A DNA stretch of 64,000 nucleotides from Sphingorhabdus lacus (GTDB lineage: Bacteria > Pseudomonadota > Alphaproteobacteria > Sphingomonadales > Sphingomonadaceae), in contig NZ_CP035733.1 in assembly GCF_009768975.1 (NCBI RefSeq), forward strand, positions 1,736,001 through 1,800,000, read 5' to 3'. The notes under the pieces were generated by a model that saw only the letters and a list, made by a program, of their open reading frames with translations, was not told the DNA's origin and searched no databases. The translations under genes and the position numbers were made by a program. Below, one piece after another: positions 27,051-61,488 of the stretch. Numbering within the stretch: the first letter of the stretch is position 1; each line of letters starts with the position of its first letter.

Positions 27051-27069
27051 AAACTAACCAGTAAGTTTT
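27051..27069 (-). promoter_or_regulatory. Operator copy a (AAACTAACCAGTAAGTTTT)
   Basis: A copy of the cluster-wide near-palindrome. On the minus strand a TTGACA (27073-27078) precedes it by 4 nt, so the associated promoter drives the TonB receptor pair. It is also 82 bp upstream of the divergent sulfatase start and could control both directions. Confidence 0.75.
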
Positions 27070-27150
27070 AGTTGTCAAGTGGCATCAAGTCACTTAACCG
27101 TTCCCGTCGATGCGATGTCTCCAAGGCGGACCAAAGAGGAGAAGTTCGGC

Positions 27151-28548
27151 ATGAGAGTTTCCAGACGCGGACTCATTTCTAGCGCCATTACGTTGGCTAC
27201 ACTGACGGCGGCAGGCTCTGCTTCCGGGCGGGTCAGGCAGCGGCGAAAACCGAACTTCGTTTTCATTCTGGCTGACGATCTAGGTGCATTTGACTTGTCA
27301 TGTTACGGTCGCGAGGACTATCGAACCCCATATATCGACAGCATCGCCCGCAATGGGATGCGTTTCGATCGTGGCTATGCAAGTTCTAGTTCCTGCGCAC
27401 CAACCCGGGTTGGACTAATTTCTGGTCGCTACCAGAACCGCCTCTTGGCAGGCTCGGGCGAAGGTGGCGGATATACTAGGGGGAAAATCGGATATTCCGG
27501 CGATCTCCCTTCGCTGCCCGGTATGTTTAAGGCAGCAGGCTATCGCACGGGGTTGGTCGGGAAATGGGGCATCGGCGAACTTCCGGACTATGGGCCTCGC
27601 AAGAGCGGTTATGACGAGTTCTTCGGGCTTATGGGCGGTGGGATCGACTATTGGTCGCACGATTTCCTCGACCCGCTGACGCCGGGTCCGCGGCACCCAG
27701 ATCTTTATGATAACGAAACCCCGGTCAAACTGGATGGCTATTCGACGGACCTCTTTTCAGACCGGGCCTCTGATTTCATAATGCGCAACGCCAAGCAGCC
27801 TTTTATGCTGTCGCTGCACTACACCGCCCCGCATTGGCCCTGGCAGACACGAACCGAACGCGGGTCGCCGCGAATGACTGACATGCACTATGAAGGCGGC
27901 TCCCCCGCGATCTACCGCGACATGGTTTTGGCGATGGATCAGGGCATTGGCCGGGTGCTCGATACCCTGCGCAAGCACCGCCTTGATCGCGATACCGTGA
28001 TCATCTTCACCAGCGACAATGGCGGCGAGCGATTCTCCAAGATGTGGCCGCTGCGGGGCGGAAAGGGCGATCTCTGGGAGGGCGGTACACGGGTTCCGCT
28101 GATCGTAAGCTGGCCAGGCCGGATTGAAGCTGGCACGGTTTCTCGTCAGATAGCGATCTCGATGGACTTTCTGCCGACAATGGCTGCGCTCGCCGGAATT
28201 TCGACCGATCCCTCTTTTCCACCCGATGGAATCGATCTTTCGCCGCAGCTCTTCGGCGCCCCTCCGATCGAGCGGACGCTGTTCTGGATGACGCCGGGCG
28301 ACCGTCTGGCCGCATTATCCTATCCTTGGAAATTCATGCGCAACGGCACGCTCGAATATCTCTACAATCTCGACGAGGATCCGACCGAACATGCCAATTT
28401 CAAGACCAGGAACCCGGCCGTGTTCGCCGATCTGAAGGCGCGGACCCTTGCCTGGTCGGCACAAATGCAGAAGCCGATGCCCGCCGTGCCCAGAACCCTT
28501 GTCGATCAGGCCGAGGGACTCGAGACGCCCAGGCTTCCGGGCAAATAG
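27151..28548 (+). CDS. Type I sulfatase, Tat-exported
   Basis: A 465-residue alkaline-phosphatase-superfamily sulfatase that hydrolyses sulfate esters. The leader MRVSRRGLISSA...AGSASG is a likely twin-arginine signal. Metal residues D42-D43 lie in ILADDLG. The formylglycine motif is C82-A-P-T-R (cysteine type, needs an FGE activator), and a second metal site lies in FTSDNGG. The open frame reaches a GTG at 27079, but the ATG at 27151 has an AGAGGAGAA ribosome site and a clean signal sequence. It is divergent from the TonB receptors over an operator. Removal of a sulfate from an imported conjugate is the likely task; the substrate is unknown. Confidence 0.9.
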   Translation: MRVSRRGLISSAITLATLTAAGSASGRVRQRRKPNFVFILADDLGAFDLSCYGREDYRTPYIDSIARNGMRFDRGYASSSSCAPTRVGLISGRYQNRLLAGSGEGGGYTRGKIGYSGDLPSLPGMFKAAGYRTGLVGKWGIGELPDYGPRKSGYDEFFGLMGGGIDYWSHDFLDPLTPGPRHPDLYDNETPVKLDGYSTDLFSDRASDFIMRNAKQPFMLSLHYTAPHWPWQTRTERGSPRMTDMHYEGGSPAIYRDMVLAMDQGIGRVLDTLRKHRLDRDTVIIFTSDNGGERFSKMWPLRGGKGDLWEGGTRVPLIVSWPGRIEAGTVSRQIAISMDFLPTMAALAGISTDPSFPPDGIDLSPQLFGAPPIERTLFWMTPGDRLAALSYPWKFMRNGTLEYLYNLDEDPTEHANFKTRNPAVFADLKARTLAWSAQMQKPMPAVPRTLVDQAEGLETPRLPGK

Positions 28549-28698
28549 GCGAATCAGTTCGCGGAGTCGGAGGCCCGTCTGCAGGCTCATAAACGCGCAG
28601 CCACAACTATTTGGCACGATCCCGCTATTGGGCCGCCGCAAGGCATCGAGTACACTTGCACCAGCGGCGCACAATTGCCGCATCACATTGGCTATCAG

Positions 28699-29061
28699 TC
28701 ACAAACGCGTACCTTGGTAGTGCTGCATTTTCCAACCGCCGTCGCGCCGCGCCCATAGGACTATGCTGCGTCCTTCGGCGGATTGAATGTTCCCACCTGG
28801 GACAACGACTTGGAGGATGATACGGCCAGTCACGACGGCGACGTTCTCGGAAAGCATCCGCACCGCCATTTCGGGCTGGGTCACTGCCTGATATCGATAG
28901 GTCCTGTCGCGGACACGTGCTAGATATTCAGCCTTAGTTTCGAGCAGCCCGTTGGTGTGAACATAGAGCGCCTCGTCGTCGATCAACTCATCTAGCGCGG
29001 TGAGATCACACGCAACCATCGCGGCGCGGCGACGAGCTTCGATTTCTTCGATTTCGGTCAT
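28699..29061 (-). CDS. SnoaL-like / DUF4440 NTF2-fold protein
   Basis: A 120-residue single-domain protein with the NTF2-like pattern. An N-terminal helix pair EIEARRRAAMVACDLTALDELIDDEALYVHTNG is followed by strands RTYRYQAV and a C-terminal VLWARRDGGWKMQHYQ strand. Such proteins act as small hydratases, isomerases or ligand carriers; catalytic residues cannot be assigned here. It is the last gene of the minus-strand unit that begins at the TetR regulator. The gap of 239 bp to the upstream enoyl-CoA hydratase shows no gene. It is convergent with the sulfatase. Confidence 0.75.
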   Translation of the reverse strand: MTEIEEIEARRRAAMVACDLTALDELIDDEALYVHTNGLLETKAEYLARVRDRTYRYQAVTQPEMAVRMLSENVAVVTGRIILQVVVPGGNIQSAEGRSIVLWARRDGGWKMQHYQGTRL

Positions 29062-29300
29062 GGTATCAGCCTGAAGTGTTGAAGCCGACTGGCGCTGGAT
29101 GCCAGAGAAATTGCCGCGATCTTCCTACTTGCACACGGGCTTCGTGGCGTGGCAGAGTTGGGCATTGTCATCAGACAGCCTTCCAAAGCCCACTTATTAG
29201 CCGGATGTTTTCCAAGGGTCACGGCTCATCATCTCCCTCTTTAACTCAACAGCGAAAAGCACGACCGCTCTTCATTCGCAATGCATTGACGGGTTCACGC

Positions 29301-30098
29301 CTAGTCCGAAAAACTTGGACCGCGACGCTCAGTAAAGGCCGACACAGCCTCCTCATGATCAGGCGTCGTGTGCGCCAGGGCCTGCATCGCGGCTGATAGT
29401 TCGAGCGTGTCGGCTAGCGTCGTGCCATGGGCCTTGCGCAGCAGGCGTTTTGTCATCCGGACCGCGTGCCTCGGGTTGCCCGCGATCATATTGGCGATGT
29501 CGATCGCCTCGGAAAGCAGGTCGTCGGGACCGACGACCCTCGACACCAGGCCGCAAGCGAGCGCTTGAGCTGCGCTCAGAACCTCGCCGGTCAACGCCAT
29601 CTCACATGCCTTTGAAAAGCCCACGATCCTTGGCAGGAGCCATGCACCACCGTCGCCAGGGACGAGGCCAACCTTTACGAAACTCTCAGCGAAGACTGCC
29701 TTCTCCGACGCAATCCGGACATCGCACATGCACGCAAGATCGCAGCCTGCGCCAATAGCAGGGCCGTTGACTGCCGCGACGACGGGCACCTCCAGCGCTT
29801 CAAACAACATCGGCAACCGCTGGATGCCGCGCATATAGTTCGTTCGGGTGTTGACGGGAGCCTCGTCCCGCAATCCCTGTCCCGGTGCCATCTTCTTGAC
29901 GTCGCCGCCCGACGAAAAGGCCGACCCGGCGCCGGTCAAAATCACGGCTCGCACGGAGGGAGTCGCGTCGGCGTCGATCATCGCTTGCGCCAGCGCGTCG
30001 ATCATTTCGATGTCGGAAATGGGATTCCTCCTTTCGGGCGCGTTGAGCGTCACCTTGAGGACCGGTCCAATTTGCTCCTTGAGAACGAGATCAGTCAT
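29301..30098 (-). CDS. Enoyl-CoA hydratase/isomerase (crotonase) family protein
   Basis: A 265-residue crotonase-fold enzyme. The oxyanion-hole segments are SSGGDVKKM and NGPAIGAGCDLA, and FAESFVKVGLVPGDGG contains a glutamate at a catalytic position. Crotonases hydrate, isomerise or cleave CoA thioesters. It lies between an FAD monooxygenase and a SnoaL gene on the minus strand, consistent with a CoA-dependent step. Stop codon TAG at 29301; the ATG is preceded by a purine-rich stretch. Confidence 0.9.
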   Translation of the reverse strand: MTDLVLKEQIGPVLKVTLNAPERRNPISDIEMIDALAQAMIDADATPSVRAVILTGAGSAFSSGGDVKKMAPGQGLRDEAPVNTRTNYMRGIQRLPMLFEALEVPVVAAVNGPAIGAGCDLACMCDVRIASEKAVFAESFVKVGLVPGDGGAWLLPRIVGFSKACEMALTGEVLSAAQALACGLVSRVVGPDDLLSEAIDIANMIAGNPRHAVRMTKRLLRKAHGTTLADTLELSAAMQALAHTTPDHEEAVSAFTERRGPSFSD

Positions 30099-30207
30099 TT
30101 TTCGTCGATCCTGACTTGGTTTGCGCCAGCACCTTCTGCTGGGCTCGAGAAATTGATGCTCCGCTTGCGGCGTTCTGATTTTGCACTTCCGATTGCCATT
30201 TCCCGGC

Positions 30208-31512
30208 TCAGTCGATTTCTACCTTGCGAACCGCTTCGCCAAAATAGCTGGCCACTTCGCGTCGCCCGATTTCGGCCACATAGGCATCGGGTCGGATGAG
30301 GATGTGGGGAGAGTTCCGGCGGACAAGCTGGGTCGCGCCGGTGTGGCGCAAATGATCGAACAGCCGCGAACCATCGGGCAGCAAGCGGTCGGCGATCCGG
30401 TCGCCAGGGGCAAGCCCATCATCCGCTTCGCCGACATTCAACGGACTGTCGGGGTAGCCAAGCGAGAGATGATTGGTCAGATCGCCACGCTTGAGCGAGG
30501 CGTTGACATGGAGCGCGCCGGTGAGCTTGAGCATGGCCGCCGCAATCGGCAGCCGCTCCTTCTGGTAGGTGTCAAGCAGACCGTCATCGCCGGTCCGGAT
30601 CGATGCGGCCAGCTTCCAGCCGAGATTCCAGGCATCCTGCACACTGGTGTTCAACCCCTGCGCGCCCGAAGGCGGATGGATATGGGCGGCATCGCCGGAG
30701 AGAAACGCCCTGCCGACGCGGTACCGATCGACCATGCGTGTCTGGTGACGGTATTCGGATTGCCAGGCGACACGGGTCACGCGCTGGCCTGTGGTACGTC
30801 GCACGCCGGCTTCCAGCCCGGCCTCGGCGATCCTGCTGGACGATGCCAGCTGGAACAGGTTGCTCACCGGCAGCGGACACAGCAAGGCCGGTCCAGTGCG
30901 GTTGAGCGGCCAGACATGCCAGAACTCGCGATCTAGGTCTTCGATCTCGAGGTCGGCGACAACCATGGTCTTGCTGTCGAGCGAGGTGCCGAACATCTCA
31001 ACCCCCAGAAGACTTCGCAAGGTGCTGCGCCCACCATCACAGCCCACGATGTAGTCGGCCTTGATGGTCTCGCCGGTGGCAAGCTCGGCGGTCACCCCCT
31101 CGGGAGACTGGGCAATGCCGACGAGGGCGGAATCATACTCGACCCGGCCACCAAGTTCGGTGAATCGGGTGAGCAGGATCTCGTTGGTCCGCCATTGCGG
31201 GATCATGAGCATGTTGGGAAAGGGACGGTCGACTGTTGCCTGGTGGCGGCTGCCAATCGAGAACAGCGGCAGGCCAAGCGGACCAGCATGGAGCTTGAAG
31301 CGGGGATACAGCCTGCTCGAGGCCACCATGTCTTCGGCAACGCCAATGAGGTCGAAGATCTCGAGCGTGCGCGGCTGAACCCCTTTGCCGCGCGATCCCT
31401 CGAAAGCAGCACTGCCTTTTTCGACCAGCCTGATCTCAACGCCGCGCCGCAGCAGTTCGATCCCCAGCACGAGGCCGGTCGGGCCTGCGCCCACGATCAG
31501 GACCTGGGTCAC
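30208..31512 (-). CDS. FAD-dependent aromatic-ring monooxygenase (PheA/TfdB type)
   Basis: A 434-residue flavoprotein with the Rossmann motif VGAGPTGLVLGIELLRRG, a central DYIVGCDGGRSTLR, and the FAD ribityl-binding motif FLSGDAAHIHPPSGAQGLNTSVQDAWNLGWKLA. These define class A flavoprotein hydroxylases that add one oxygen to phenols or related rings with NAD(P)H. It is shorter than the usual 500-600 residues but retains the C-terminal PDGSRLFDHLR and IRPDAYVAEI region. Its start overlaps the stop of the GST-like gene by 4 bases, indicating coupling. Confidence 0.88.
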   Translation of the reverse strand: MTQVLIVGAGPTGLVLGIELLRRGVEIRLVEKGSAAFEGSRGKGVQPRTLEIFDLIGVAEDMVASSRLYPRFKLHAGPLGLPLFSIGSRHQATVDRPFPNMLMIPQWRTNEILLTRFTELGGRVEYDSALVGIAQSPEGVTAELATGETIKADYIVGCDGGRSTLRSLLGVEMFGTSLDSKTMVVADLEIEDLDREFWHVWPLNRTGPALLCPLPVSNLFQLASSSRIAEAGLEAGVRRTTGQRVTRVAWQSEYRHQTRMVDRYRVGRAFLSGDAAHIHPPSGAQGLNTSVQDAWNLGWKLAASIRTGDDGLLDTYQKERLPIAAAMLKLTGALHVNASLKRGDLTNHLSLGYPDSPLNVGEADDGLAPGDRIADRLLPDGSRLFDHLRHTGATQLVRRNSPHILIRPDAYVAEIGRREVASYFGEAVRKVEID

Positions 31513-32429
31513 TGCGTAGCTCCTGGCAGATTTCCCATTCGCGACCGGTAATCAGACGCACGGTCCAGCCCTACCACCTGTACAAGGTCGGTGCCACGTA
31601 GCCGTTGCACCGCGTGCAACAGCTTCGTGATCAAACCGACTCCACGCGGCCAGCGCACTTCTCCACTCAGATCCTTCCGAGCATCGAGCGCATCGAACCA
31701 TTCGCCCATACGTGGATGCAGGTGATGCAGAGGATAGGATGCCTCGCACAAGCGCCTGACGTAGATGTACCAGGCTATGTCGAGCAGCGTCAGCTGGTTG
31801 CCGAGTAGGAAATACTGGCCTTCGAGTCGACCGTCAAACTGTTCGAGCACGCACCGAAACCGATCGAATGCCAGCCGAGCGCGCTCGTCGCTTACCCCGT
31901 TGTTCCTGATCATCTCGCGCCAGAATTCGGCTTCGCGCGCCTTGTCCGGATCGACCGCGCCTTGGACACTGCCAGAGCCCAGACCTTCATACTTGCGGAT
32001 CTCACTTTCGGGCTTTTTCGCGAGGAACGACGGCACGACGAACCGCATCGTCAGGGCCCTGATGTCCAGGTGTAGATTGTCCTCCTCGCGCAGCAAGCGG
32101 TGCATCTCTTCCTTGCGATCTGCTGGAATCAGCACTGGCTCGGGAAATGCTTCTTCCAGGTATTCGAGGATATCGTTGCTCTCCACGATCACCTTGCCAT
32201 CATGCACCAACGCCGGCACAAGGCCCCTTGGGTTGATCCCCATGTACCAAGGCGTGACATGCTCCCCTTTGGCAAGGCTGATGTGGTGCGAGGTCCAGTC
32301 AATGCCCTTAAGGCGCAGGAAAATCCGGACCTTCTGCGAGCAGGACGAACCCTGGAAGTGAAACAAGTGCAACCCTCGCCAGTCCAGCACTTCCTTGGTC
32401 AGCACATCACTGTCGTGCAGCATTACCAT
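31509..32429 (-). CDS. Glutathione S-transferase-like protein with a zeta-type N-terminus
   Basis: A 306-residue GST. The N-terminal thioredoxin-like domain begins near residue 18, and FQGSSCSQKVRIFLRLKGI resembles the SSCxxRVR signature of maleylpyruvate/maleylacetoacetate isomerases. NPRGLVPALVHDGK and VIVESNDILEYLEE bind the glutathione backbone. The C-terminal helical domain is longer than in a typical 215-residue zeta GST. It is coupled by a 4-base overlap with the FAD monooxygenase. An isomerase or ether-cleaving (LigF-like) role is possible; the assignment is tentative beyond GST fold. Confidence 0.78.
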   Translation of the reverse strand: MVMLHDSDVLTKEVLDWRGLHLFHFQGSSCSQKVRIFLRLKGIDWTSHHISLAKGEHVTPWYMGINPRGLVPALVHDGKVIVESNDILEYLEEAFPEPVLIPADRKEEMHRLLREEDNLHLDIRALTMRFVVPSFLAKKPESEIRKYEGLGSGSVQGAVDPDKAREAEFWREMIRNNGVSDERARLAFDRFRCVLEQFDGRLEGQYFLLGNQLTLLDIAWYIYVRRLCEASYPLHHLHPRMGEWFDALDARKDLSGEVRWPRGVGLITKLLHAVQRLRGTDLVQVVGLDRASDYRSRMGNLPGATQ

Positions 32430-32474
32430 AGGCGGTTTCTCTCTAGTTTTTGGGCACCGAGCAGATCGTTTTGG

Positions 32475-33272
32475 TTACCTCGGAGCGATGAAAACAGTTT
32501 GCAAACCCCTTGCGTAAACCCCCTTTTCATCAGCAAACAGCGTATGTGCGGTCCCGTGGCCGTTGCCCGCCGTGTGGGTTTCGGCGTCAAGCAGGAACCA
32601 ATCGCCGACCGGCATCCTCATGAACTGAACTGTGATATCGAGATTGGGCATGGCCCATTCCGTCGGGCGCAGCGCATTACCAAAGCCATGGCCGAAATCG
32701 GCGAACAAACACGCTTTTACAAAGTTCGACGGCGTTTCCCCAGAAATCACTTCGCCGTCGGTCATGGTCATCCACCACACAGCCCGCCCGGGCACACCCG
32801 GATCGCCGCTGACGCGCCGAAAGGTAACCGAACCGCCCATTTGCGCAAGCTCCGGTACTTTCCCCGATGGCATGTCCTCCGGCTTGGGATAGTTTGAAGG
32901 CATAGCAAAATCAGGAGTCGTCAGACGGCGGACGCGCAAAACATGAGCTTGTGCTACGACCTCGCCATTAGCCAGCAGGCTGATGCAGTGAAGTTTGGTT
33001 TGCGCCCCGTCACGCAAGACCTTGATCGAGCGGGACAGCGGCAAATTGGGAACCTTCCCAAAGATATCAAGTTGGAATCGCGCGATTGCGAACCTTTCGT
33101 TGAGATCGGAATCTTCCGCGCAGGATGCCAGCAGACAGCTTGTCGGGCCTCCGGCAATCCATTTGTCGCCATGCCAAGGACTACGCGCCAAATCGGTTGG
33201 AACGAATTTCTCTCCATCTCGAAAAAAATAAACGTTTGGGACAAGGCGTGGCCTTGCGTTGGGTAATGACAC
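32475..33272 (-). CDS. Acyl-CoA thioesterase-like double-hotdog protein
   Basis: A 265-residue TesB-like thioesterase-superfamily protein. SPWHGDKWIAGGPTSCLLA opens the first hotdog, and the second hotdog ends PNLDITVQFMRMPVGDWFLLDAET followed by GRGTAHTLFADEKGVYARG-type segments. Starts with GTG at 33272, preceded by GGAG at a spacing of about 9. It is immediately downstream of the TetR gene on the same strand and probably part of the same unit. It may release free CoA from dead-end acyl-CoAs; the physiological substrate is unknown. Confidence 0.8.
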   Translation of the reverse strand: MSLPNARPRLVPNVYFFRDGEKFVPTDLARSPWHGDKWIAGGPTSCLLASCAEDSDLNERFAIARFQLDIFGKVPNLPLSRSIKVLRDGAQTKLHCISLLANGEVVAQAHVLRVRRLTTPDFAMPSNYPKPEDMPSGKVPELAQMGGSVTFRRVSGDPGVPGRAVWWMTMTDGEVISGETPSNFVKACLFADFGHGFGNALRPTEWAMPNLDITVQFMRMPVGDWFLLDAETHTAGNGHGTAHTLFADEKGVYARGLQTVFIAPR

Positions 33273-33345: not shown

Positions 33346-33936
33346 CTATTTTTTTGAACGAGTAGAACCGCGCATAAATAAAGACCAATTGGCTTCAATA
33401 ACTTCTTCTTCAGACAAACCTTTCTTTTTCTCTACAAACCATTTGCTCGGACCGAGAGCAAGAGCGATGAATGACCGGGCAATCAACTCCAATGGAATGT
33501 CATCGCGTAGTTCACCCGACTTTTGCGCATCGGTGATCAATGATTTGATAAAAGAAAGATATTCTCCAGCTAAACGATCAATTTCGTCACGATCGGTTAA
33601 CCGGTGACGTTCTCCATCGATAATCCTGACCTCGTGACGGTGCTCAATCGCAAAATGCGTATGAAAGCGGAACAGTTCGCGTAGCTGATCGAGCGATGCA
33701 GCCTTTCCAGCGGCGATCCGCCGCGCTTCGTCAAGGGCGCGTTCGTGGTTACGCCGGACAATCGCCTGCAGGATTGCGGCTTTGCTTGAACCGTATTTGT
33801 AGAGCGTCGGTTTGGAAATACCGAGGCGGTTGGCCAATTCGTCCGTACTGGTCTCATGAAAGCCCTTCTCAGCGAAAAGGTTGCTTGCAGCCTCAAGGAC
33901 TGAATCAGTCAATTCCTCTTGTCGGCTCCGTCCCAT
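33346..33936 (-). CDS. TetR family transcriptional regulator, candidate master repressor of the cluster
   Basis: A 196-residue TetR-type protein. The N-terminal helix-turn-helix spans about residues 10-55, with TSTDELANRLGISKPTLYKYGSSKAAIL as the recognition region. The C-terminal ligand and dimer domain ends in a basic RGSTRSKK tail. It is the only transcription regulator gene seen in the 42-kb cluster. An operator copy lies 24 bp upstream, overlapping its own promoter, so autorepression is likely. By analogy with steroid regulators such as KstR and KstR2, the inducer may be a CoA thioester, but that is inference. Confidence 0.9.
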   Translation of the reverse strand: MGRSRQEELTDSVLEAASNLFAEKGFHETSTDELANRLGISKPTLYKYGSSKAAILQAIVRRNHERALDEARRIAAGKAASLDQLRELFRFHTHFAIEHRHEVRIIDGERHRLTDRDEIDRLAGEYLSFIKSLITDAQKSGELRDDIPLELIARSFIALALGPSKWFVEKKKGLSEEEVIEANWSLFMRGSTRSKK

Positions 33937-33959: not shown

Positions 33960-33978
33960 AAACTAACCCGTAAGTTTA
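33960..33978 (-). promoter_or_regulatory. Operator copy b, at the TetR gene (AAACTAACCCGTAAGTTTA)
   Basis: This copy lies 24 bp upstream of the TetR start. On the minus strand TTGACG (33983-33988) precedes it by 5 nt, so the promoter reads toward the TetR-thioesterase-GST-monooxygenase unit. This is the key copy for assigning the motif to this regulator. Confidence 0.78.
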
Positions 33979-34169
33979 GCTACGTCAAGCAGCTTGCACC
34001 TTTGGAAGGCAACCTTGGCACCGCACACCCGGTTCATTCCAAGGCCTTTGCTAAGGTCAAAACAGAGGTTTAGGGATTATCCGCGGAGGTTCCACCAAAA
34101 AATGGACCAGCCGGTTCCCGAGCAGAAGGACCAGTGCACAACAGAGCGGCATACAATTCGAAGCTGGCT

Positions 34170-35004
34170 TTACAGGATGAACTGATCACCAGAAGCCCGA
34201 ACCGTTATGTCGCCAATTGACACGCCCAGCGGCTGGTCGATGACGTGCAGTATCGCGTCGGCGATATAGTCGGGCGAGAGGCGGGCATAGGAAATCCCTT
34301 GGGAATCCATTAAGATAGTCTCCCCTACCCTCTTCGACTGCTAATAACATTTCTGCGAGCTCTCCGGCATTTTGACCCACGATCCCAACGCCTGCAGCAC
34401 GGTTGATAACTGATCCGGTTAAACCCGTTCCAGGAACTCCGGTGGGCTTCACTACGGAGACTTTGATCTTGCCCCTCGTTTCAACCCGAAAGCTCTCGGA
34501 AAGAAAATTGACCGCGGTCTTGGTCGCACCATAGACGGCCGCGCCGACAACTGGGAAATTGCCGTAAATCGAACTGATATTGACGATCTGCCCACTGCCT
34601 TTTTCCATCATCGGATCATGTGCGGCAATCATGCCGTTGAGCACACCCTTGATGTTGACATCGATCACGCGATGCCAAGCCACATGGGCGGTTTCGTGAT
34701 CGCTGAAAAATGCCAGCGGCATAATTCCGCCGTTGTTGATCATCACATCGACCTGACCTAACGCGTTCACTGCGGCAGAGACCGGGGCCTTGTCGGCATC
34801 AAGCTCGGTCAAGTCGACCTGCTTGGCCAGGGCTTCGCCACCTGCTTCGCAGATCTGGGCCGCGACGGCTTCAGCCCCTTCGATATTCACGTCCCCCAGT
34901 GTGACCCGCGCACCACGCGCCGCAGCCTTTCGTGCGACGAGCTCGCCGAAACCACCACCGGCCCCGGTTATGACGACGGATTACCACGCAACATAGTCGT
35001 TCAT
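34170..35004 (-). pseudogene. Short-chain dehydrogenase pseudogene (nonsense plus frameshift)
   Basis: Read on the minus strand from ATG at 35004, the protein would start MNDYVAW and then meets TAA at codon 8, just before VVITGAGGGFGELVARKAAARG. Everything after is a recognisable SDR: cofactor motif GAGGGFG, NNGG, NISS and catalytic YGATK. Near 34310 the frame changes. The continuing open frame ends in a basic, unrelated tail, whereas the neighbouring frame gives a normal SDR C-terminus (MDSQGISYARLSPDYIADAI..., ending GDQFIL and TAA at 34170). Two independent lesions indicate loss of function. It lies downstream of the two acyl-CoA dehydrogenases and may once have been the hydroxyacyl dehydrogenase of that unit. 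Confidence 0.85.
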
Positions 35005-35027
35005 ACCGTGTATCCTTCCTTTAGGGC

Positions 35028-36005: not shown

Positions 36006-36018
36006 GTCCAATCGCTCC

Positions 36019-37176: not shown

Positions 37177-37255
37177 TCTTGTCGGATCAGGATTTCGCGC
37201 ATGCCCGATCACCGTCTCAGCTCTCTCTTCCACGAACGACAGTGCTTGACAAGAA

Positions 37256-37274
37256 AAACTTACCCGTTAGTTTT
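37256..37274 (+). promoter_or_regulatory. Operator copy c (AAACTTACCCGTTAGTTTT)
   Basis: This copy is preceded by a perfect TTGACA (37246-37251) 4 nt upstream on the plus strand, directing transcription to the NMO-thiolase unit. It also lies 80 bp from the divergent acyl-CoA dehydrogenase start. Confidence 0.78.
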
Positions 37275-38343: not shown

Positions 38344-38362
38344 CAAACAAAGGAGTTTAACG

Positions 38363-48011: not shown

Positions 48012-48111
48012 CCGGCTATCGCCGCCCGATCAGTCGAGCATGGGTTATTGCGAACTTTGCAATGCAAATTCTTCATTGGAAAGCGGCTTGCCGAACCCTG
48101 TTTGATCAGCT

Positions 48112-48130: not shown

Positions 48131-48148
48131 GTTATCTGGAGACAGCCC

Positions 48149-49372: not shown

Positions 49373-49426
49373 TCGACACCTAGCCGGTTCAGAACGAGCG
49401 GCGAGGCAGCATAGGGAGGACCGGAT

Positions 49427-51076: not shown

Positions 51077-51103
51077 GTAGCAATCAGGAGCGCAGACACA
51101 GCC

Positions 51104-51948: not shown

Positions 51949-53151
51949 TCAGGTGCGCGGCAGTCCCAGGTATCGCTCAGCGACGATGTTGCGCATGATC
52001 TCGTTCGATCCCCCGGCGATCGTCCAGGCATAGCTCTTGAGGAAGTCGGTGAACTTGATCCTGCTCGTATGCGCTGTAGCGGGGATCGGGGCTTTCCACT
52101 TGTGTGCTTGTATGCCTTCGGCGCGCACGAGAAACTCGGTATAGCGCTGCAGGAACGGCCCCCAGGTCAGTTTAATGAAGGTCGGCAGGGTTGGCGAAAC
52201 CTTGTCAGGGTTCGCTTCCAGCTCCTTGAGCAGCTTGCGGATCAGCAGCCGGATGACCTGAAGCTCGGCATGGAACGCGGCGTATTCACGGCGCATCTGC
52301 GAATCGCGCATCCAACTGTCCTTACCGTCGACCCGGTCGCGTTCGAACGAACGGGCAAGCCGTTCCGTTCCGCCGAAAATCAGCAGCCCCCTCTCGGCCG
52401 AGAGAGTGGATTGAGCGATATTCCAACCGTCGCCTTCTGCACCGATCAGGTTCTCCGCCGAGATTTTCACATCATCCATGAAGATCTCGCAGAATTCCTG
52501 CTCACCGGTAATCGACCGGATCGGCCGAACTTCGACGCCGGGTGCCTTCATATCCATGATGAAATAAGAAATGCCTTCGTGCTTGCGCTTGACGTTCTGC
52601 TCCGTGCGGGCAAGCAGCAGGCAAAATTGGGCATTCATCGCCCCTGACGACCAGATCTTCTGCCCGTTGACTACATAATGATCGCCTTCGCGGCGTGCAC
52701 TTGTTCGTAGCGCCGCGAGATCCGATCCGGCCCCCGGTTCAGAGAAGCCCTGGCACCAGATATCTGTGCCGTGAGTTATCCCCGAAAGGTACTTCTCCTT
52801 CTGCGTTGGACTGCCGTGTTCAAACAGCGTTGCCGGCGTCTGGAACAGCGAAACCATGTACATGTGAAGCTCGGGCGCGTCTGCGCGGGTCAGCTCCTCA
52901 TAAACGATGATCTGGTAACCGAATGGCAGACCTGGCCCGCCCCATTCCTTCGGCCAGTGCGGAGTGGCGAGGCCCACTTTCCTGCGCTCTTCGAGCCAAG
53001 CGACCATCTTGGGCTTGAGGGTTTCATTTTCCAGTCCCTGCCATTCGTTGCGCCAGTTCCTGGGCATCGCAACTGCGAGCCAGTCGCGAATTTCCTGCCG
53101 AAAGGCTGCCTCGTCGCCGACTTTAGAGAGAATATCGAAAGTCCGGGACAT
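51949..53151 (-). CDS. Acyl-CoA dehydrogenase, long subunit of a second pair
   Basis: A 400-residue full-size acyl-CoA dehydrogenase. The FAD/substrate loop is WCQGFSEPGAGSDLAALR, followed by HYVVNGQKIWSSGAMN, and the C-terminus is TIAGGSNEIMRNIVAERYLGLPRT. Its ATG overlaps the stop of the short subunit by one base, so the two are translated together as expected for a heterotetramer. Confidence 0.9.
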   Translation of the reverse strand: MSRTFDILSKVGDEAAFRQEIRDWLAVAMPRNWRNEWQGLENETLKPKMVAWLEERRKVGLATPHWPKEWGGPGLPFGYQIIVYEELTRADAPELHMYMVSLFQTPATLFEHGSPTQKEKYLSGITHGTDIWCQGFSEPGAGSDLAALRTSARREGDHYVVNGQKIWSSGAMNAQFCLLLARTEQNVKRKHEGISYFIMDMKAPGVEVRPIRSITGEQEFCEIFMDDVKISAENLIGAEGDGWNIAQSTLSAERGLLIFGGTERLARSFERDRVDGKDSWMRDSQMRREYAAFHAELQVIRLLIRKLLKELEANPDKVSPTLPTFIKLTWGPFLQRYTEFLVRAEGIQAHKWKAPIPATAHTSRIKFTDFLKSYAWTIAGGSNEIMRNIVAERYLGLPRT

Positions 53152-54224
53152 CACGCCGCCTCCAGCAGATCGGCAACACGATCGAGCGCTTCATTGCGGG
53201 TTAGATAAAGTGCTTCATTAAGCTTTGCTCGCTTCAGGAAGACATGCGGTTGGAACTCTGCAGTGAAGCCAACACCGCCATGCAACTGGATGCAATCACG
53301 CGCGACCTCAGCCACAACTCGGGTGATGTGCGCCTTGGCAGAAATGGCATGAACCAGACCGGCCGGATCAACTGGATCGAGCGACGATGCATAAGCGAGT
53401 AGTTCACGCGCACCAACCAAAGCAGTCTTGTGATCTGCCACCCGATGTTTGAGCGCCTGAAAACTACCGATCACCTTTCCGAACTGTTCGCGAATCTTTA
53501 GGTATTCGATAGTGAGAGCAAGCACGGCTTCGCCGATGCCCAGAGAGTCCGAAGCAAGTAAAATGCAGCTCGAATGCACAAGCAGATCGGCAACCTGTCG
53601 GTCCTCTGGCTGCAGAACGATTGCATCTTCAACTATCGACACGTGGGATAGTGTCACAGTTCCCAGCGTCCGGCTCGTGTCATTCAGCGGGTGGGCTTCT
53701 ACAGACAGACCGGAAGCACTAATGGGCAGCACGATCCAGCAAGCCTTATCTCTACGCCTCCCGTTCAGAACAAGGTGCGTTGCACAAGGGGCGTCGAGGA
53801 TGTCAGCGATAACGCCACTGACGCTTTCGTCATCGATTTCCAGCCATCCACCCGATGGTTGAGCAAAGGCCGGCCGCATCGAGCCACTGGCAAGCATGGG
53901 GAGCCATGCCGCACGCTGCCTGTCGCTGGCAGCATGCGCGACAAGCAAAATAGTCAAAGTCGTGCCGAGCATTGGGACCGGTGCCGCCACCGCACCGAGA
54001 GCCCGATGCAGGCGTGAGGCGGCGTCAATTCCAAGGCCAAGCCCTCCGAACGATTCAGGGACAGTAAGGGCAGTCCAACCAAGCTCCGATATCTGCTGCC
54101 ACAAATCCACCGCCATCGAGCCACCGGATTGGGCGTATGCGACCGAGCGTTCGCGCGGCCATTCGGTGGCCAGTAATTCTGAAAAGCTTTCGTCCAGGAG
54201 ATCGAGATCGATGGTATCGGACAA
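53151..54224 (-). CDS. Acyl-CoA dehydrogenase, short subunit of a second pair
   Basis: A 357-residue acyl-CoA dehydrogenase homologue. The helix IREQFGKVIGSFQALKHRVAD and the QLHGGVGFTAEFQPHVFLKR C-terminal region are conserved, while the N-terminal half is degenerate and has no GxSEPxxGSD loop. Coupled to the long subunit by a 1-base overlap. Downstream of the rubredoxin and crotonase genes of the P450 unit beginning near 56.5 kb. Confidence 0.87.
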   Translation of the reverse strand: MSDTIDLDLLDESFSELLATEWPRERSVAYAQSGGSMAVDLWQQISELGWTALTVPESFGGLGLGIDAASRLHRALGAVAAPVPMLGTTLTILLVAHAASDRQRAAWLPMLASGSMRPAFAQPSGGWLEIDDESVSGVIADILDAPCATHLVLNGRRRDKACWIVLPISASGLSVEAHPLNDTSRTLGTVTLSHVSIVEDAIVLQPEDRQVADLLVHSSCILLASDSLGIGEAVLALTIEYLKIREQFGKVIGSFQALKHRVADHKTALVGARELLAYASSLDPVDPAGLVHAISAKAHITRVVAEVARDCIQLHGGVGFTAEFQPHVFLKRAKLNEALYLTRNEALDRVADLLEAA

Positions 54225-54265
54225 GCGGTTTACTCCAGTTTCAAATCGACAAACGCGCTTCCGCG

Positions 54266-55066
54266 CTAGTCGCCGGCCACGATGTTCTTGAAGTTTGCAA
54301 GCCGCTCAGCGGCACTGGCTGTGCTCTTTGAGGCGGTATGTACAAGTTGATGGGTGTCGAAATGCGCGCTCATCATCACGCTATAGCCTTGGGAATCGAG
54401 ATTACGGTTGAGCGAGCGTTTCATCATCTGCATGGCAAAGGGAGGAGCCTTCCCGATCGTCTCTGCAATTTCCATTGCGGCAGCTTCAAGTTGGTCACGC
54501 GCGACCAGCCGCGTGACGAAACCACGTTGGTAAGCCTCTTCAGCTGTTAGTTTGCGCCCTGTAAACAAGATGTCGCGCGCCAGCCGGTCTCCAAGCGCCC
54601 ATGGGTGGAACAGGACTTCAACTGCGGCTGAACCCAATAGTACGGTAGGATCCGCGAAATACGCATCCTCCGACGCTACCAGAATATCCGCCATCGCTGC
54701 GAGCATGAAACCCCCGGCAATGCACGCACCCTGGGCTTGGACAATCACAGGTTTGGAGTGGTTCCGTATGCCCATCGCAATCTCGAGATAATAGCGATCT
54801 TCGAACTGGTATCGCTCAATAGTAGGCCGCTGTAGATAGTCGTCGCCCAATTCCTTATTGTCATGGCCGGCCGAAAAGCAGCTGCCATCGGCAGCCAGGA
54901 TAACAACTCGAACCTCGTCATCGACGTCTGCGCGTTTGAGCCCAGCATCCAGGCCTTCGAGCATTGCTTTGTTTTGAGCATTCCGCTTTTCGGGCCGCGC
55001 CAGCGTTATGCGCTCGACGCTTCCAAACCGTTCAACCCGGACATGCTGCTGGGACATGGCATTCAT
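54266..55066 (-). CDS. Enoyl-CoA hydratase/isomerase family protein
   Basis: A 266-residue crotonase with the oxyanion segment FSAGHDNKELG (an aspartate-containing loop) and GACIAGGFMLAAMADI. FADPTVLLGSAAVE replaces the usual glutamate loop. The ATG at 55066 has a GCAGGAAAG site; a second ATG lies 9 nt further in. It probably works with the adjacent acyl-CoA dehydrogenase pair, either as hydratase or isomerase. Confidence 0.88.
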   Translation of the reverse strand: MNAMSQQHVRVERFGSVERITLARPEKRNAQNKAMLEGLDAGLKRADVDDEVRVVILAADGSCFSAGHDNKELGDDYLQRPTIERYQFEDRYYLEIAMGIRNHSKPVIVQAQGACIAGGFMLAAMADILVASEDAYFADPTVLLGSAAVEVLFHPWALGDRLARDILFTGRKLTAEEAYQRGFVTRLVARDQLEAAAMEIAETIGKAPPFAMQMMKRSLNRNLDSQGYSVMMSAHFDTHQLVHTASKSTASAAERLANFKNIVAGD

Positions 55067-55084
55067 CTTTCCTGCGATTAGCGA

Positions 55085-55264
55085 TCAATAGTCCATCAGC
55101 TCGAAATCCTGCTTTTCCGTGCCACAATCGGGGCAATAGAAAAGATCTTCCGGAATGGTTTCGAAGGGCGTCCCCGGCTCAATTCCCTCCTCCGGAAAAC
55201 CCAAGGCTTCGTCGTAAATATAGCCGCAGCTCCGACACCGCCATTTTCGTGACAAGCTACTCAT
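55085..55264 (-). CDS. Rubredoxin
   Basis: A 59-residue iron protein with two CxxC knuckles: C10-x2-C13 in WRCRSCGYIYDE and C44-x2-C47 in FYCPDCG. This is the complete rubredoxin signature with a GFPEEGIEPGTPFETIPEDL core. It lies 13 bp after the P450 stop and 18 bp before the crotonase start, within one unit. Rubredoxins usually feed alkane hydroxylases, so linkage to a P450 is unusual; it may act as an electron carrier for the P450 or for the acyl-CoA dehydrogenases. Confidence 0.93.
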   Translation of the reverse strand: MSSLSRKWRCRSCGYIYDEALGFPEEGIEPGTPFETIPEDLFYCPDCGTEKQDFELMDY

Positions 55265-55277
55265 CGCCGTCGCCTTC

Positions 55278-56549
55278 TTAACACGCCGTGAAACGGATCG
55301 GCACCCGCTTTGGCCCACATACAAAGTTCGAAATCGTCCTGGCTGGCGTTCCCGAAAGCTCCACGGAAGCCAAGCGATCGAACAACTCTTCCAAAAGGAC
55401 ACGCATTTCCAACCGCGCCAAGTGCTGCCCCAGGCAAACGTGAACGCCGTACCCAAAGGCGAGTTGCGGGTTGTCCTTACGATCCAGTCTAAATTCGTAC
55501 GGGTCATCGAAGACCAAATCGTCACGATTGGCAGAACTGTAGCACAACATCATCCAGTCACCCTTCGCGATCTTCTGGCCGGCCAATTCGCAATCAGCGG
55601 TGGCCGCGCGCATGAAGTGCTTGACCGGCGTCACCCAGCGCACGCCTTCATCGACAAGCGCCGGGATTAGCGACCGGTCATGCCGTATTTGCTCGAAAAG
55701 GTGCGGCCTTTCTGCCAAAGCCCACATAATTCCTGCGGTTGCGTTCGAAGTGGTATCATGGCCCGCGGTCGCGACAGTGACATAATAGCTGAGCAACTGC
55801 CGGCGGGTCAGATAATCTCCATCGATCCGCGCGTTGGCGATCAAGCTGTTCAGCCCACCATCCGGCTCGCTACGTAAACGTGTAGTCACATCGAGGAAAT
55901 AGGTCTCCATCTCGGCCATGCTTGCTAAAGTCGCCTGGAGAGCCTCCTCCGGGGTTAGTTGCTTGCCAGAACGGTTCAAGTCAGGATCGTTAGCTGAGAA
56001 TATCTCCTGGGTCAGCTTAAGCATCATCGGCTCGTCCTCACGCGGAACGCCCATAAATGCCATCAACACCCGTAGCGGATAGAGAAATGCCACCTGCTTG
56101 GCGAAATCGCACTCGCCGCCAAGTTCGAGCATCTGGTCGGCAAACTCGCTTGCGATCTTGCGAACCTTATCTTCCATAGGCCGGACCGATCGCGGCGTCA
56201 GATGCGGGAACAATACTCCTCGCAAGTCCTTATGCTCTTTTCCATCGACCGTCACGACACTGCGGCTCATATTCGCTTCGCCACCCGTGACTTCTCGTAT
56301 CTTTGCCGCGTTTGCTTTCGTTTGGACTACTGTCGCTCGGTCCCCGTTGTGGAACAGATTTGGCTGGCGCTCGATTTCCTTGATATCGGCGTGTCGGCTC
56401 ACTACCCAGAAGGGGTCATATTCGTCTGGTTCCGCAATATCCAATGGCGCCTCCGATCTGATGCGCCGGAATACTTCGTCTATCCTGTCCCCATCCGCAT
56501 AGGCCCGACCGTCAACAATCGCTTCGGCTAATGACTGGTGTAACGTCAT
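55278..56549 (-). CDS. Cytochrome P450, second copy (423 aa), CYP124/125-like
   Basis: A soluble P450 with I-helix ATAGHDTTS, K-helix EGVRW-type region and the heme loop AFGYGVHVCLG with ligand C372. The region VDGKEHKDLRGVLFPHLTPRSVR resembles the CYP124/CYP125/CYP142 group that hydroxylates terminal carbons of methyl-branched chains or sterol side chains, which is a tentative comparison. The ATG at 56549 has a GGAGAG site. It leads the unit P450-rubredoxin-crotonase-acyl-CoA dehydrogenase pair and faces the kinase-like gene over an operator region. Confidence 0.93.
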   Translation of the reverse strand: MTLHQSLAEAIVDGRAYADGDRIDEVFRRIRSEAPLDIAEPDEYDPFWVVSRHADIKEIERQPNLFHNGDRATVVQTKANAAKIREVTGGEANMSRSVVTVDGKEHKDLRGVLFPHLTPRSVRPMEDKVRKIASEFADQMLELGGECDFAKQVAFLYPLRVLMAFMGVPREDEPMMLKLTQEIFSANDPDLNRSGKQLTPEEALQATLASMAEMETYFLDVTTRLRSEPDGGLNSLIANARIDGDYLTRRQLLSYYVTVATAGHDTTSNATAGIMWALAERPHLFEQIRHDRSLIPALVDEGVRWVTPVKHFMRAATADCELAGQKIAKGDWMMLCYSSANRDDLVFDDPYEFRLDRKDNPQLAFGYGVHVCLGQHLARLEMRVLLEELFDRLASVELSGTPARTISNFVCGPKRVPIRFTAC

Positions 56550-56700
56550 ATCTCTCCAACCCTCACTGGCGACGGACACTCATTGCGAAAGTTGCACATA
56601 TGGTGGCCGAACGAGGCTATAGATTTCATTGAATTGGTTTTCCAAATCATCGAAACTTTATGCTCCTCGGTTACCGATTGTCTCAGTATTTGACAAGCAT

Positions 56701-56719
56701 AAACTAACTGGTAAGTTTT
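56701..56719 (+). promoter_or_regulatory. Operator copy g (AAACTAACTGGTAAGTTTT)
   Basis: TTGACA (56690-56695) precedes the motif by 5 nt on the plus strand, directing transcription to the kinase-like pair. It lies 151 bp from the divergent P450 start and could also influence it. Confidence 0.77.
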
Positions 56720-56775
56720 CATTTGCCAGCTTGCAAATGGCGTGGTCACATGCACGATTTATGAAGGTGGAACCA

Positions 56776-57864
56776 ATGGCGGAATTTCCGTCCCATCCCG
56801 ACGAAGTTAGCCCCTGCTGGCTAACCGATAAGCTGCGCAATGCCGGCCTTATAGGGAATGCGGCGATTATAAACCTTTCGTGGCAATCAATAGGCACCGG
56901 GAACGTCGGCGACAGCGTTCGCTACACTCTTGCTTACGATCGCGAAGGTCCTTTGCCGTCAACGATCGCTGGCAAATTTCCGGCATCCGACGAAACCAGC
57001 CGTGCGACCGCTTCTGCATTTGGCGTTTATGCCAAGGAAGTGAAATTCTATCTCGAGATCGCACCAAAGCTGGAAGTACGAGTGCCGCAGACATATGTTG
57101 CAAAGATCGCACCGAACGGGGTGGATTTCATCTTGTTGTTCGAAGACTTAGGCCCGGCCCGCGGAGGAGATCAACTGATCGGCTGCACCGCTTCCGACGC
57201 TCGCGCCGCGATCCGGCAAGCAGCGTCCTTCCACGCACCCAGCTGGAACGATCCCGAACTGCTTGCCATCGACTGGCTTCGGCCGAATCCCGCGATCATG
57301 GCGAAGCGTGCAGAACTCTATCCAAGAGCTCAAGACGCGTTTCGAGAACGGTTTGCCAATAAGCTTGAACCAGAGTTCATGAACTTATGCGAAGAATTGG
57401 TTGAATATATCGGCGTTTGGATAGAGCGTGAGGCACGGCCTCAATCACTTGTCCACGGCGACTTCCGCCTCGACAACATGCTGTTCGAAATCAAGGATGG
57501 TATCGAAGAGATTGCTGTGCTCGACTGGCAGACCGTTGCCATTGGAAACGGCCTTGTCGATCTCGGTTTTTTCATGGGCGCTGGCATTGGTGCCAGCTTG
57601 CGGCGCGAATGCGAAGCTGAACTACTCGATCTCTACTGTTCGGAAATGACCCGGCGCGGTGTAGCGCTCACACGTGACGAGATTTGGGACGACTATGTAG
57701 TGGGAAGCCTACGGGGTATCGTCAACGCCGTATTTAGTACCGCAAACGTCAAGCGCAGTGAACGCGGCGATGAATGTTTTCTTTCCATGGCTCGCGGTGG
57801 TTGCTCGCTAGCTTTGGAGCACAATAGCCTCGCGCGGCTGATGGGAGCAAGCACATGGTGCTGA
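56776..57864 (+). CDS. APH-superfamily small-molecule kinase-like protein
   Basis: A 362-residue phosphotransferase of the aminoglycoside/choline-kinase-like fold, closest in pattern to the ecdysteroid-kinase-like group (DUF227/CHK). A phosphate-binding SIGTGNVGDSVRY segment is near the start, Brenner's motif is LVHGDFRLDNMLF and the metal aspartate is VLDWQTVAIGNGLVDLG. The ATG at 56776 has an AAGGTGG site; upstream in-frame starts are rejected since they overlap the operator. It probably phosphorylates a hydroxyl of a small hydrophobic compound. It overlaps the next gene by 10 bases. Confidence 0.85.
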   Translation: MAEFPSHPDEVSPCWLTDKLRNAGLIGNAAIINLSWQSIGTGNVGDSVRYTLAYDREGPLPSTIAGKFPASDETSRATASAFGVYAKEVKFYLEIAPKLEVRVPQTYVAKIAPNGVDFILLFEDLGPARGGDQLIGCTASDARAAIRQAASFHAPSWNDPELLAIDWLRPNPAIMAKRAELYPRAQDAFRERFANKLEPEFMNLCEELVEYIGVWIEREARPQSLVHGDFRLDNMLFEIKDGIEEIAVLDWQTVAIGNGLVDLGFFMGAGIGASLRRECEAELLDLYCSEMTRRGVALTRDEIWDDYVVGSLRGIVNAVFSTANVKRSERGDECFLSMARGGCSLALEHNSLARLMGASTWC

Positions 57865-58940
57865 CGAAGGGCGACGACTTTCCGTTACACCAGACACCTG
57901 AACCCGTCGCATTTGCCGGCACCGACCGTAATTTCTATGATCGGTACTTTTTCCATGGCTATGCGCCAGATGGCTCCGATTTCTTCGCCGCAGCCTTTGG
58001 AGTGTACCCGCATCTCAACGTCGCAGATGCCCATTTTTCTGCGGTTCGTGGCGGAATTCAGCATAACCTCCATGCCAGTCGCGAACTCAACATGGAGCGG
58101 ATGGACCTTACATGCGGCCCGATCCGAATCGAAGTATTGGAGCCGCTCCACCAGCTGCGCATCCTGATTGATGGAGAAGGGATCAAGGCTGACCTGACCT
58201 TCACTGGCCGTGCCTTTCCAATCGAGGAACCACGTTTCACTATCCGCATCGGCCCACGCGTCTTCACCGATCTGACACGCATGACACAAAACGGCTTTTA
58301 CAGCGGCTGGATCGAGATCGATGGTGTCAAAATTGAAATGCCAACGGGAACCATGGGAACCAGAGACCGTAGTTGGGGTGTCCGTCCGATAGGCGCGCGC
58401 GACCAACAGCCGCATTCAAGCGGAACCAACTTCACATTTTTTTGGCAATGGGTTCCAATAAATTTTACTGACCGAAGCGTCTTCTTCCACGTAAATGCTA
58501 AACCCGATGGTCGCCCCGTGCACACGCGTGCCGTCATCGCATCCGATGGTGCGATGGCCGGTGACATGTACGAAACCGAAGCCAGAATGGAGGCTTCCTT
58601 GCAACCAGGCACGCGATGGCCCAAGTCGGGCAGGTTGACCGTACAGGGGCAAGACGGTCTGGAAGTGCTGACGTTCGAAGTGCTGGGCCGCTTCCAGATG
58701 CGCGGGCTTGGATACAGTTCACCCAAATGGGGCCACGGCCTTTATCACGGCCCCTTGGCGGTCGAGCGGGAAGATATAGATCTCTCTCAATGCGATCCTG
58801 CTCAACTAGAGAACCACTATGTGCAGTTGCCATGCAGGGTGACAAGCGATCGATATGGGGAAGGTTTTGGTGTCTTTGAACAGTTGATTGTCGGTCCATA
58901 TCAACCATTTGGCTTGCAGGAATTCACCGATCTAGGGTAG
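57855..58940 (+). CDS. Lipocalin-like protein of unknown function (DUF7064/7065-like)
   Basis: A 361-residue soluble protein without a signal peptide, rich in beta strands. It contains GTRDRSWGVRPIG, a motif family marker, and HGLYHGPLAVE near the end. It resembles AttH/hydroxyneurosporene-synthase-type lipocalin-like hydrolases and proteins usually found beside APH-type kinases. Function is not known. The start overlaps the kinase gene by 10 bases, indicating a coupled pair. A kinase plus ligand-binding or hydrolytic partner would fit, but this is inference. Confidence 0.7.
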   Translation: MVLTKGDDFPLHQTPEPVAFAGTDRNFYDRYFFHGYAPDGSDFFAAAFGVYPHLNVADAHFSAVRGGIQHNLHASRELNMERMDLTCGPIRIEVLEPLHQLRILIDGEGIKADLTFTGRAFPIEEPRFTIRIGPRVFTDLTRMTQNGFYSGWIEIDGVKIEMPTGTMGTRDRSWGVRPIGARDQQPHSSGTNFTFFWQWVPINFTDRSVFFHVNAKPDGRPVHTRAVIASDGAMAGDMYETEARMEASLQPGTRWPKSGRLTVQGQDGLEVLTFEVLGRFQMRGLGYSSPKWGHGLYHGPLAVEREDIDLSQCDPAQLENHYVQLPCRVTSDRYGEGFGVFEQLIVGPYQPFGLQEFTDLG

Positions 58941-58980
58941 CGTCGGAAGGCTATTCGCAAAAATACATCTCCGGTCTTCG

Positions 58981-59358
58981 CTAACCCGCTATCGATCGCC
59001 GATATGTGTCCATGTCAAAATAGTCGCGCCACACCTTGATTTTACCATTTTCGAGCTCAAATACTCCGCAACAAGGCAAGGCTACCGCTTTTCCATGGGC
59101 GATGATCCGATCAATCCGTTCGACGAAAACAACATTGCCAGTGCTGGCGATTGACAGGATTTCCCAGCTGGTTTCTGTCCAGCTCTCCAGAAACGCGGCT
59201 ATAAAGGTTCGCAAATTTTCTTGGCCTCGCACCGGCTCCATCGGCATGTTGTGATAGACCCCATCTTGGGCAAAAAATTCTACGATCCTGTCGACATCCA
59301 GGTTCGGCCAAGTGTCAATAAAAGTCCGAACGATCACCATATTTTCCGCACTGCTCAC
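58981..59358 (-). CDS. Limonene-1,2-epoxide hydrolase-like NTF2-fold protein
   Basis: A 125-residue protein of the SnoaL/limonene-epoxide-hydrolase type. It has VVFVERIDRI, in which R81 and D83 match the Arg and Asp of the limonene epoxide hydrolase triad, and KVWRDYFD supplying D112. Starts at GTG 59358 with an AAAGGA site; the longer open frame upstream overlaps the divergent operator region and is rejected. It could hydrolyse an epoxide made by a P450 or simply bind a small ligand. Confidence 0.75.
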   Translation of the reverse strand: MSSAENMVIVRTFIDTWPNLDVDRIVEFFAQDGVYHNMPMEPVRGQENLRTFIAAFLESWTETSWEILSIASTGNVVFVERIDRIIAHGKAVALPCCGVFELENGKIKVWRDYFDMDTYRRSIAG

Positions 59359-59479
59359 CCAACATCCTTTCGATTCAGCCTCACCTGTGCGAGCAAGCGC
59401 TAACGACTGCGGCAGATTTCCGCTTGCTGGCATACTGCAGATGCAAATGCTAATCACGGCTTAGAGGTTTGACAATCAA

Positions 59480-59498
59480 AAACTAACTGGTAAGTTTT
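59480..59498 (+). promoter_or_regulatory. Operator copy h (AAACTAACTGGTAAGTTTT)
   Basis: TTGACA (59469-59474) precedes the motif by 5 nt on the plus strand and reads to the extradiol dioxygenase unit. It also lies in the divergent region before the epoxide-hydrolase-like gene. Confidence 0.78.
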
Positions 59499-61485: not shown

Positions 61486-61488
61486 AGC

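Follow-up and report, generated by a model that had tools for sequence, protein, structure and literature searches.

The stretch of the Sphingorhabdus lacus genome analysed here (64,000 nucleotides, hereafter the window, C1:1736001-1800000 of a 3,458,643-bp genome in one contig) contains a catabolic gene cluster which by Pfam extends from 21744 to ~71400, a length of ~50 kb, positions past the window end being given as window-equivalent. Nine copies of an 18-bp near-palindrome, AAACTWAC-NN-GTWAGTTT, occur along this cluster, and we consider it likely, with good confidence, that the TetR-type protein encoded at 33346-33936 is a cluster-specific repressor acting through these nine sites. Judged from the sequence, one repressor very probably keeps the whole ~50-kb gene set off. 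The regulator and its putative operators are as follows.

33346-33936, minus strand: TetR-type regulator, the proposed cluster repressor, with TetR_N and TetR_C_24 domains (model pLDDT 85.7; nearest folds KstR2, PfmR and AibR)
27051-27068, minus strand: putative operator 1, TonB receptor promoter (divergent sulfatase), TTGACA at 27073-27078
33960-33977, minus strand: putative operator 2, the regulator's own promoter, TTGACG at 33983-33988
37256-37273, plus strand: putative operator 3, NMO-thiolase promoter (divergent acyl-CoA dehydrogenase pair and SDR), TTGACA at 37246-37251
43287-43304, minus strand: putative operator 4, perfect arms, promoter of CoA transferase, ferredoxin, VTT protein and ferredoxin reductase, TTGACT at 43311-43316
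46431-46448, minus strand: putative operator 5, MaoC-type hydratase promoter (divergent ligase 1), TTGACA at 46453-46458
48112-48129, plus strand: putative operator 6, weak, two mismatches, directly 5' of P450 a, without a TTGAC box
56701-56718, plus strand: putative operator 7, kinase-like pair promoter (divergent P450 b), TTGACA at 56690-56695
59480-59497, plus strand: putative operator 8, extradiol dioxygenase promoter (divergent LEH-like gene), TTGACA at 59469-59474
65181-65198 (window-equivalent, beyond the window): putative operator 9, ligase 3 promoter (divergent FadJ-like gene), exact copy

A motif search of the window allowing up to three mismatches returned 16 strand matches where 0.23 were expected, a number reached by none of 100 shuffles, and recovered all eight copies listed in the original prediction, among them the one with perfect arms at 43287. 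The symmetric form AAACTWACNNGTWAGTTT has eight exact sites genome-wide, all within C1:1763051-C1:1801198, seven in the window and one beyond its edge, while the weakest copy, at 48112, carries two mismatches to it. The site beyond the edge is a ninth copy, at C1:1801181 (window-equivalent 65181) just past the window end and outside the 32-kb stretch in which the copies had first been noticed. Outside the cluster the whole genome holds one site with two mismatches, nine with three and none exact; a genome-wide count, set beforehand as a test, therefore found no multitude of copies elsewhere. These weak matches are at chance level: read backwards, the pattern matches 28 times per strand with up to three mismatches allowed, the motif itself 19 times. 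The two-mismatch site (C1:2170059), which sits between the 3' ends of two convergent open reading frames (ORFs) and so is not at a promoter, is likewise taken as chance. The motif array thus stands as a genuine feature of a single stretch, with one copy more than first claimed. The copies had also been placed exclusively in intergenic regions. Those at 46431 and 56701 fall within mechanically called ORFs with TTG starts (46377 and 56629), but downstream ATG codons are the likelier starts of both ORFs, and the two copies would then still be upstream sites. The motif was not recognised at the outset as a described operator, and for the six spellings tried no printed operator matching it was found among open-licence PMC papers.

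A Pfam scan of 42 cluster ORFs of 100 amino acids or more, from the first TonB receptor to the last acyl-CoA dehydrogenase (ACAD3b), identified the TetR protein as the only regulator present, in line with its earlier designation as the only TetR-type gene; the genome as a whole has 15 TetR_N matches. Further members include three ligases, two P450s, SDRs, an MFS transporter, acyl-CoA dehydrogenase pairs and ferredoxin reductases. If same-strand runs are taken as operons, each of the 42 ORFs would belong to a run beginning at one of the nine sites. The limits first proposed for the regulon, 27051-59498, are probably too narrow, with the regulated stretch reaching from 21744 to ~71400. The genes within the window are listed below.

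21744-27025, minus strand: tandem pair of TonB-dependent receptors, with overcalled ORF starts and a 142-bp overlap
27079-28548, plus strand: sulfatase (Pfam)
28699-33272, minus strand: run behind TetR, with thioesterase, GST, FAD monooxygenase, enoyl-CoA hydratase and DUF4440 (Pfam)
34186-37233, minus strand: acyl-CoA dehydrogenase pair and SDR (Pfam)
37363-39616, plus strand: NMO/FabK-like flavoprotein and thiolase
39635-43217, minus strand: family III CoA transferase, 2Fe-2S ferredoxin, VTT-domain protein and ferredoxin reductase
43341-46403, minus strand: MaoC-type hydratase, enoyl-CoA hydratase and S1/P1 nuclease-like protein (Pfam)
46377-51937, plus strand: ligase 1, P450 a, ligase 2 and SDR (Pfam)
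51949-56579, minus strand: P450 b (P450terp-like), enoyl-CoA hydratase and acyl-CoA dehydrogenase pair
56629-58940, plus strand: EcKL/APH kinase-like protein and a second protein that matches nothing in Pfam
58981-59457, minus strand: LEH/SnoaL-like protein (Pfam)
59531-63074, plus strand: extradiol dioxygenase, FAA hydrolase, reductase and SnoaL-like protein
63099-64000, minus strand: FadJ-like gene, beginning only, continuing past the window

To identify relatives of the regulator we scanned contigs of 84,980 species, one genome each, with the TetR protein as a single query, which detects close relatives only. The scan gave 31 loci, of which two are close, in Sphingorhabdus contaminans KCTC32445 (91 % identity) and in a Sphingomonadaceae metagenome-assembled genome (MAG; 89 %), the remaining 29 having ≤ 55 % identity with the highest values over short spans. 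The genomes of seven of the 31 loci were searched for the motif at up to two mismatches. S. contaminans contains eight exact copies within 35 kb, with one two-mismatch match on another contig, and the MAG contains seven exact copies and one with a single mismatch spread over two contigs. At this threshold no match was found in L020, L021, L023, L025 and L031, the five genomes whose TetR relatives are distant; with the reversed pattern, three of the seven genomes gave 2, 1 and 1 matches. Within the genus the TetR gene (E 1e-15 or better) is found in 2 of 45 genomes, our own and S. contaminans (G538), and these same two carry the motif arrays, eight sites each at up to one mismatch, while a single one-mismatch match in G577 has its equal in single matches of the reversed pattern in three genomes. 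In samples that overlap with this one the TetR gene was found in our own genome only, both in the family (1 of 149, E 1e-20; G040 has a single one-mismatch motif) and in the class (1 of 385). An array without the TetR gene was seen in none of the genomes searched for both.

Gene by gene the cluster is 67-97 % identical to those of the two relatives. Seven of its genes have no match in either (DUF4440, FAD monooxygenase, S1/P1 nuclease, the kinase pair, LEH and SnoaL), the third acyl-CoA dehydrogenase pair has weak matches only and no counterpart of the sulfatase is present on the two MAG contigs. The promoters that carry motif copies correspond across the three genomes, with two exceptions: the 48112 site of P450 a is kept in the MAG with one mismatch and absent in S. 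contaminans, and the MAG has one site where our genome has two (56701 and 59480). Behind the operator corresponding to that of 56629-58940, S. contaminans has a molybdopterin oxidoreductase (L048:6382-8559) and our genome the EcKL/APH kinase-like pair, so that different genes stand under the same promoter.

Alignment of the upstream regions of the orthologous clusters, as had been suggested, comprised 22 pairwise ungapped comparisons over eight of our sites. That of P450 a was omitted, and the extradiol site was compared with S. contaminans only because in the MAG it shares one site with P450 b. In the motif arms 349 of 352 positions are identical, in the whole 18-mer 382/396 and in the 12 bp before the motif 235/264. 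In the upstream flank (13-52 bp before the motif) 398/880 positions are identical and in the downstream flank (3-42 bp after it) 324/880, that is 37-45 %, flanks with small insertions being scored as diverged in ungapped comparison; around the TetR, MaoC and ligase 3 sites flank conservation is visibly higher than elsewhere. The motif is a conserved island inside otherwise diverged promoters.

The motif has a fixed relation to a -35-like element. Of the 25 motif sites of the three genomes, 23 have a TTGACA, TTGACG or TTGACT box before them, on one side only, at a distance of 4 bp (12 sites), 5 bp (8 sites) or 6 bp (3 sites), the two sites without a box being those of P450 a; at the TetR site a near-match TTCACA is found on the opposite side too, in two of the three genomes. 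Because the box is 4-6 bp away, the motif would overlie the 16-17 bp spacer and the -10 place, which is a repressor position.

Assignment of the regulator to the TetR family follows from its TetR_N and C-terminal domains and from an all-helical model with TetR folds as best matches. The protein scores 56.9 bits to PF00440 (cut-off 24) and 42.9 bits to PF17932 (cut-off 26.4), while none of the NCBIfam models reaches its cut-off. The palindrome at the gene's own promoter, 33960-33977, has corresponding sites in the two other genomes and is located as originally described, except that the distance to the ATG is 23 bp and not 24 bp. An AlphaFold model (mean predicted local distance difference test, pLDDT, 85.7) compared using Foldseek gave KstR2 as the best match by E-value (TM 0.84, 21 % identity), followed by PfmR and 3dcf, with AibR and Bacillus FadR among the first eleven and 16-26 % identity across the 50 matches listed. 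A KstR2-like fold is common to other TetR branches and hence not distinctive, and a profile built from ten chosen sequences placed Bacillus FadR proteins at the top, then Mce3R, 3dcf and PfmR, with KstR2 lower. Several of the nearest-fold regulators were solved with acyl-CoA, structure titles naming stearoyl-CoA (3whc) and isovaleryl-CoA (5k7h). Since the nearest folds include acyl-CoA sensors, and judging by the kind of pathway encoded, the likeliest inducer is by analogy, and on a weak basis, one of its CoA-thioesters or the acid preceding it. Upstream of 13 loci of distant TetR relatives the best dyads (up to four each) included none that was motif-like besides those of the two close relatives.

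From these data we infer the following mode of action. A dimer of the TetR protein would bind the near-palindrome at nine sites, and at eight of them the bound protein would cover the spacer and the -10 place and so exclude RNA polymerase, the site at its own promoter providing negative feedback. The block governed would run from the TonB receptors through the third acyl-CoA dehydrogenase pair, covering uptake and desulfation, oxidation by P450s with redox partners, extradiol cleavage of the ring, activation with CoA and beta-oxidation, and a pathway CoA-thioester or its preceding acid would free the repressor so that one signal turns on the entire pathway. The joint occurrence of gene and motif, the conserved motif island and the repressor-like position all support the single-regulator catabolic regulon proposed at the outset.

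A number of observations weigh against this repressor model. Genomes without the cluster lack both the TetR gene and the motif, and the joint occurrence for that reason supports but does not prove that this TetR reads the motif. The P450 a site is degenerate, boxless and absent in S. contaminans. Six divergent partners (the sulfatase, ACAD1a, ligase 1, P450 b, LEH and FadJ) have no box on their own side, so that their control is putative. A clear -10 hexamer was not seen. Among the fold matches are also DarR, RutR, a gamma-butyrolactone receptor and MtrR with estradiol, which sense other ligands, hence the weak basis of the CoA-thioester inducer.

The first of these points is equally expected if a general regulator coded outside the cluster serves it, for example one of the 14 other TetR genes, the cluster TetR then controlling itself or something else. 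A general regulator with sites in this cluster only would be odd, and the motif stands at the cluster TetR's own promoter in all three genomes, two of them of different genus codes (the MAG, G809, carries g51 and our genome g1); we regard this explanation as unlikely. A few TetR proteins act as activators, and the fixed arrangement of motif and TTGAC box resembles a composite promoter, so that the TetR protein might bind the motif mainly to activate, or TTGACA and motif might together form the promoter of a special sigma factor. The two-fold symmetry of the motif, its position over the spacer and -10 place and the copy at the regulator's own gene favour a repressor, and near-consensus TTGACA boxes ought not to need activation, making either variant more improbable still. 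That numerous near-identical short copies in a single stretch are chance repeats or a functionless short mobile repeat is scarcely credible given the expectation of 0.23, the upstream positions, the retention in three genomes despite diverged flanks and the one fixed promoter geometry.

Local TetR repressors of catabolic clusters are known, and the logic proposed here for the cluster TetR is ordinary. One report (PMC8700777) describes EdcR, a TetR repressor of estrogen catabolism in Caenibius tardaugens whose operator TnnCnnTACnAnTnGTAnnGnnA overlaps the -10 box of several promoters. Like the cluster TetR, EdcR as described there lies beside its own catabolic cluster in a sphingomonad and has a palindromic operator at the -10 place; by eye, however, TAC and GTA are five bases apart in TnnCnnTACnAnTnGTAnnGnnA and two in AAACTWACNNGTWAGTTT, and its C-terminal domain is TetR_C_11 in place of TetR_C_24. 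TetR_C_11 is not among the Pfam matches of the cluster TetR at E 0.001. EdcR-type estrogen control was rejected because both operator and C-terminal domain differ. KstR2, which has HIP-CoA as effector, is described in PMC5380842 as a TetR repressor in a CoA-thioester pathway, with a regulon for the last two steroid rings. Compared by fold, identity and genes it is the best fold match to the cluster TetR yet only 21 % identical, and its regulon as set out there shares a FabK-like flavoprotein, thiolase, hydratases and ligases with the cluster. Type I CoA transferase (PF01144) has four matches in our genome, at C1:112263-113531 and C1:2406209-2409183, and none in the cluster; a KstR2-type HIP regulon was rejected because the ipdAB-type CoA transferase genes lie outside. 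FadR of Bacillus, PfmR and AibR are acyl-CoA-sensing and among the nearest by fold and profile but belong to other pathways and have low identity. PheR of Sphingobium sp. SHPJ-2, a sphingomonad repressor of a catabolic operon likewise linked to TonB uptake, differs in belonging to the IclR family and in its binding site (PMC13273656). The TetR regulators FadP and LiuQ, which act on the use of fatty acids and of branched-chain amino acids, are assigned to betaproteobacteria alone within the genome set of PMC5343134. The operator sequence and its regulator appear undescribed, and we regard the system as a new local TetR regulon with good support rather than as a system of a new kind.

Certain cluster genes hint at the substrate. 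The P450s together with the extradiol dioxygenase and FAA hydrolase suggest that an aromatic ring is oxidized and cleaved, the presence of three ligases and of acyl-CoA dehydrogenases in pairs points to bulky side chains or remnants of rings, and the sulfatase suggests a sulfate ester substrate. Extradiol homologues (E 1e-60 or better) are present in 30 of 397 family genomes, 17 of the 31 places showing 60-64 % identity over nearly the whole protein. Four of these neighbourhoods (our own paralogue, G541, G543 and G646) contain an FAA hydrolase and a distant FAD monooxygenase and no P450 cluster, that of G646 with a sulfatase (46 %) nearby, and such neighbourhoods do not name the substrate. Paper listings on Sphingorhabdus with estrogen or P450 clusters and on diterpenoid catabolism contained nothing on this cluster. 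Tentatively, and with more doubt than belief, the cluster may encode the whole of an undescribed pathway that begins with a P450 and acts on an aromatic ring compound, possibly sulfated and terpenoid-like, steroid-like or alkylphenolic, with all steps between uptake through the outer membrane and beta-oxidation. A single undescribed sensor of a CoA-thioester would run this pathway via nine near-identical operators, and the unit would have passed between sphingomonad genera. A precise putative operator, regulator and boundary are now given for a 50-kb pathway, which would be a clean example of an entire pathway under a single input. A reporter made of one promoter and the TetR gene could be used to screen compounds for the inducer, which would hint at the substrate, and as a biosensor.

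The paralogue in our genome is a second extradiol dioxygenase, 62 % identical, at C1:3385905-3389445 (L069:5905-9445) with an FAA hydrolase and FAD monooxygenase; it adjoins another TetR gene on the opposite strand, and the same trio occurs in three other sphingomonad genomes examined. On its left the cluster adjoins a tRNA-Lys (ctt) gene at 21331-21406. Insertion at this gene was considered and rejected, its last 14-20 bases having no second exact copy in 102 kb of our sequence or in the examined parts of the two other clusters. Plasmid searches with the TetR, extradiol dioxygenase and P450 a proteins gave matches only below 60 %. An S1/P1 nuclease-like gene (43341-44339) without a match in the two other clusters lies within the beta-oxidation run. 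The tandem TonB receptors (21744-27025) probably represent a duplication in our genome, since S. contaminans and the MAG each have a single receptor that both of them match. The MAG contig holding half of the cluster also carries a bacteriorhodopsin-like gene (L052:1563-2492).

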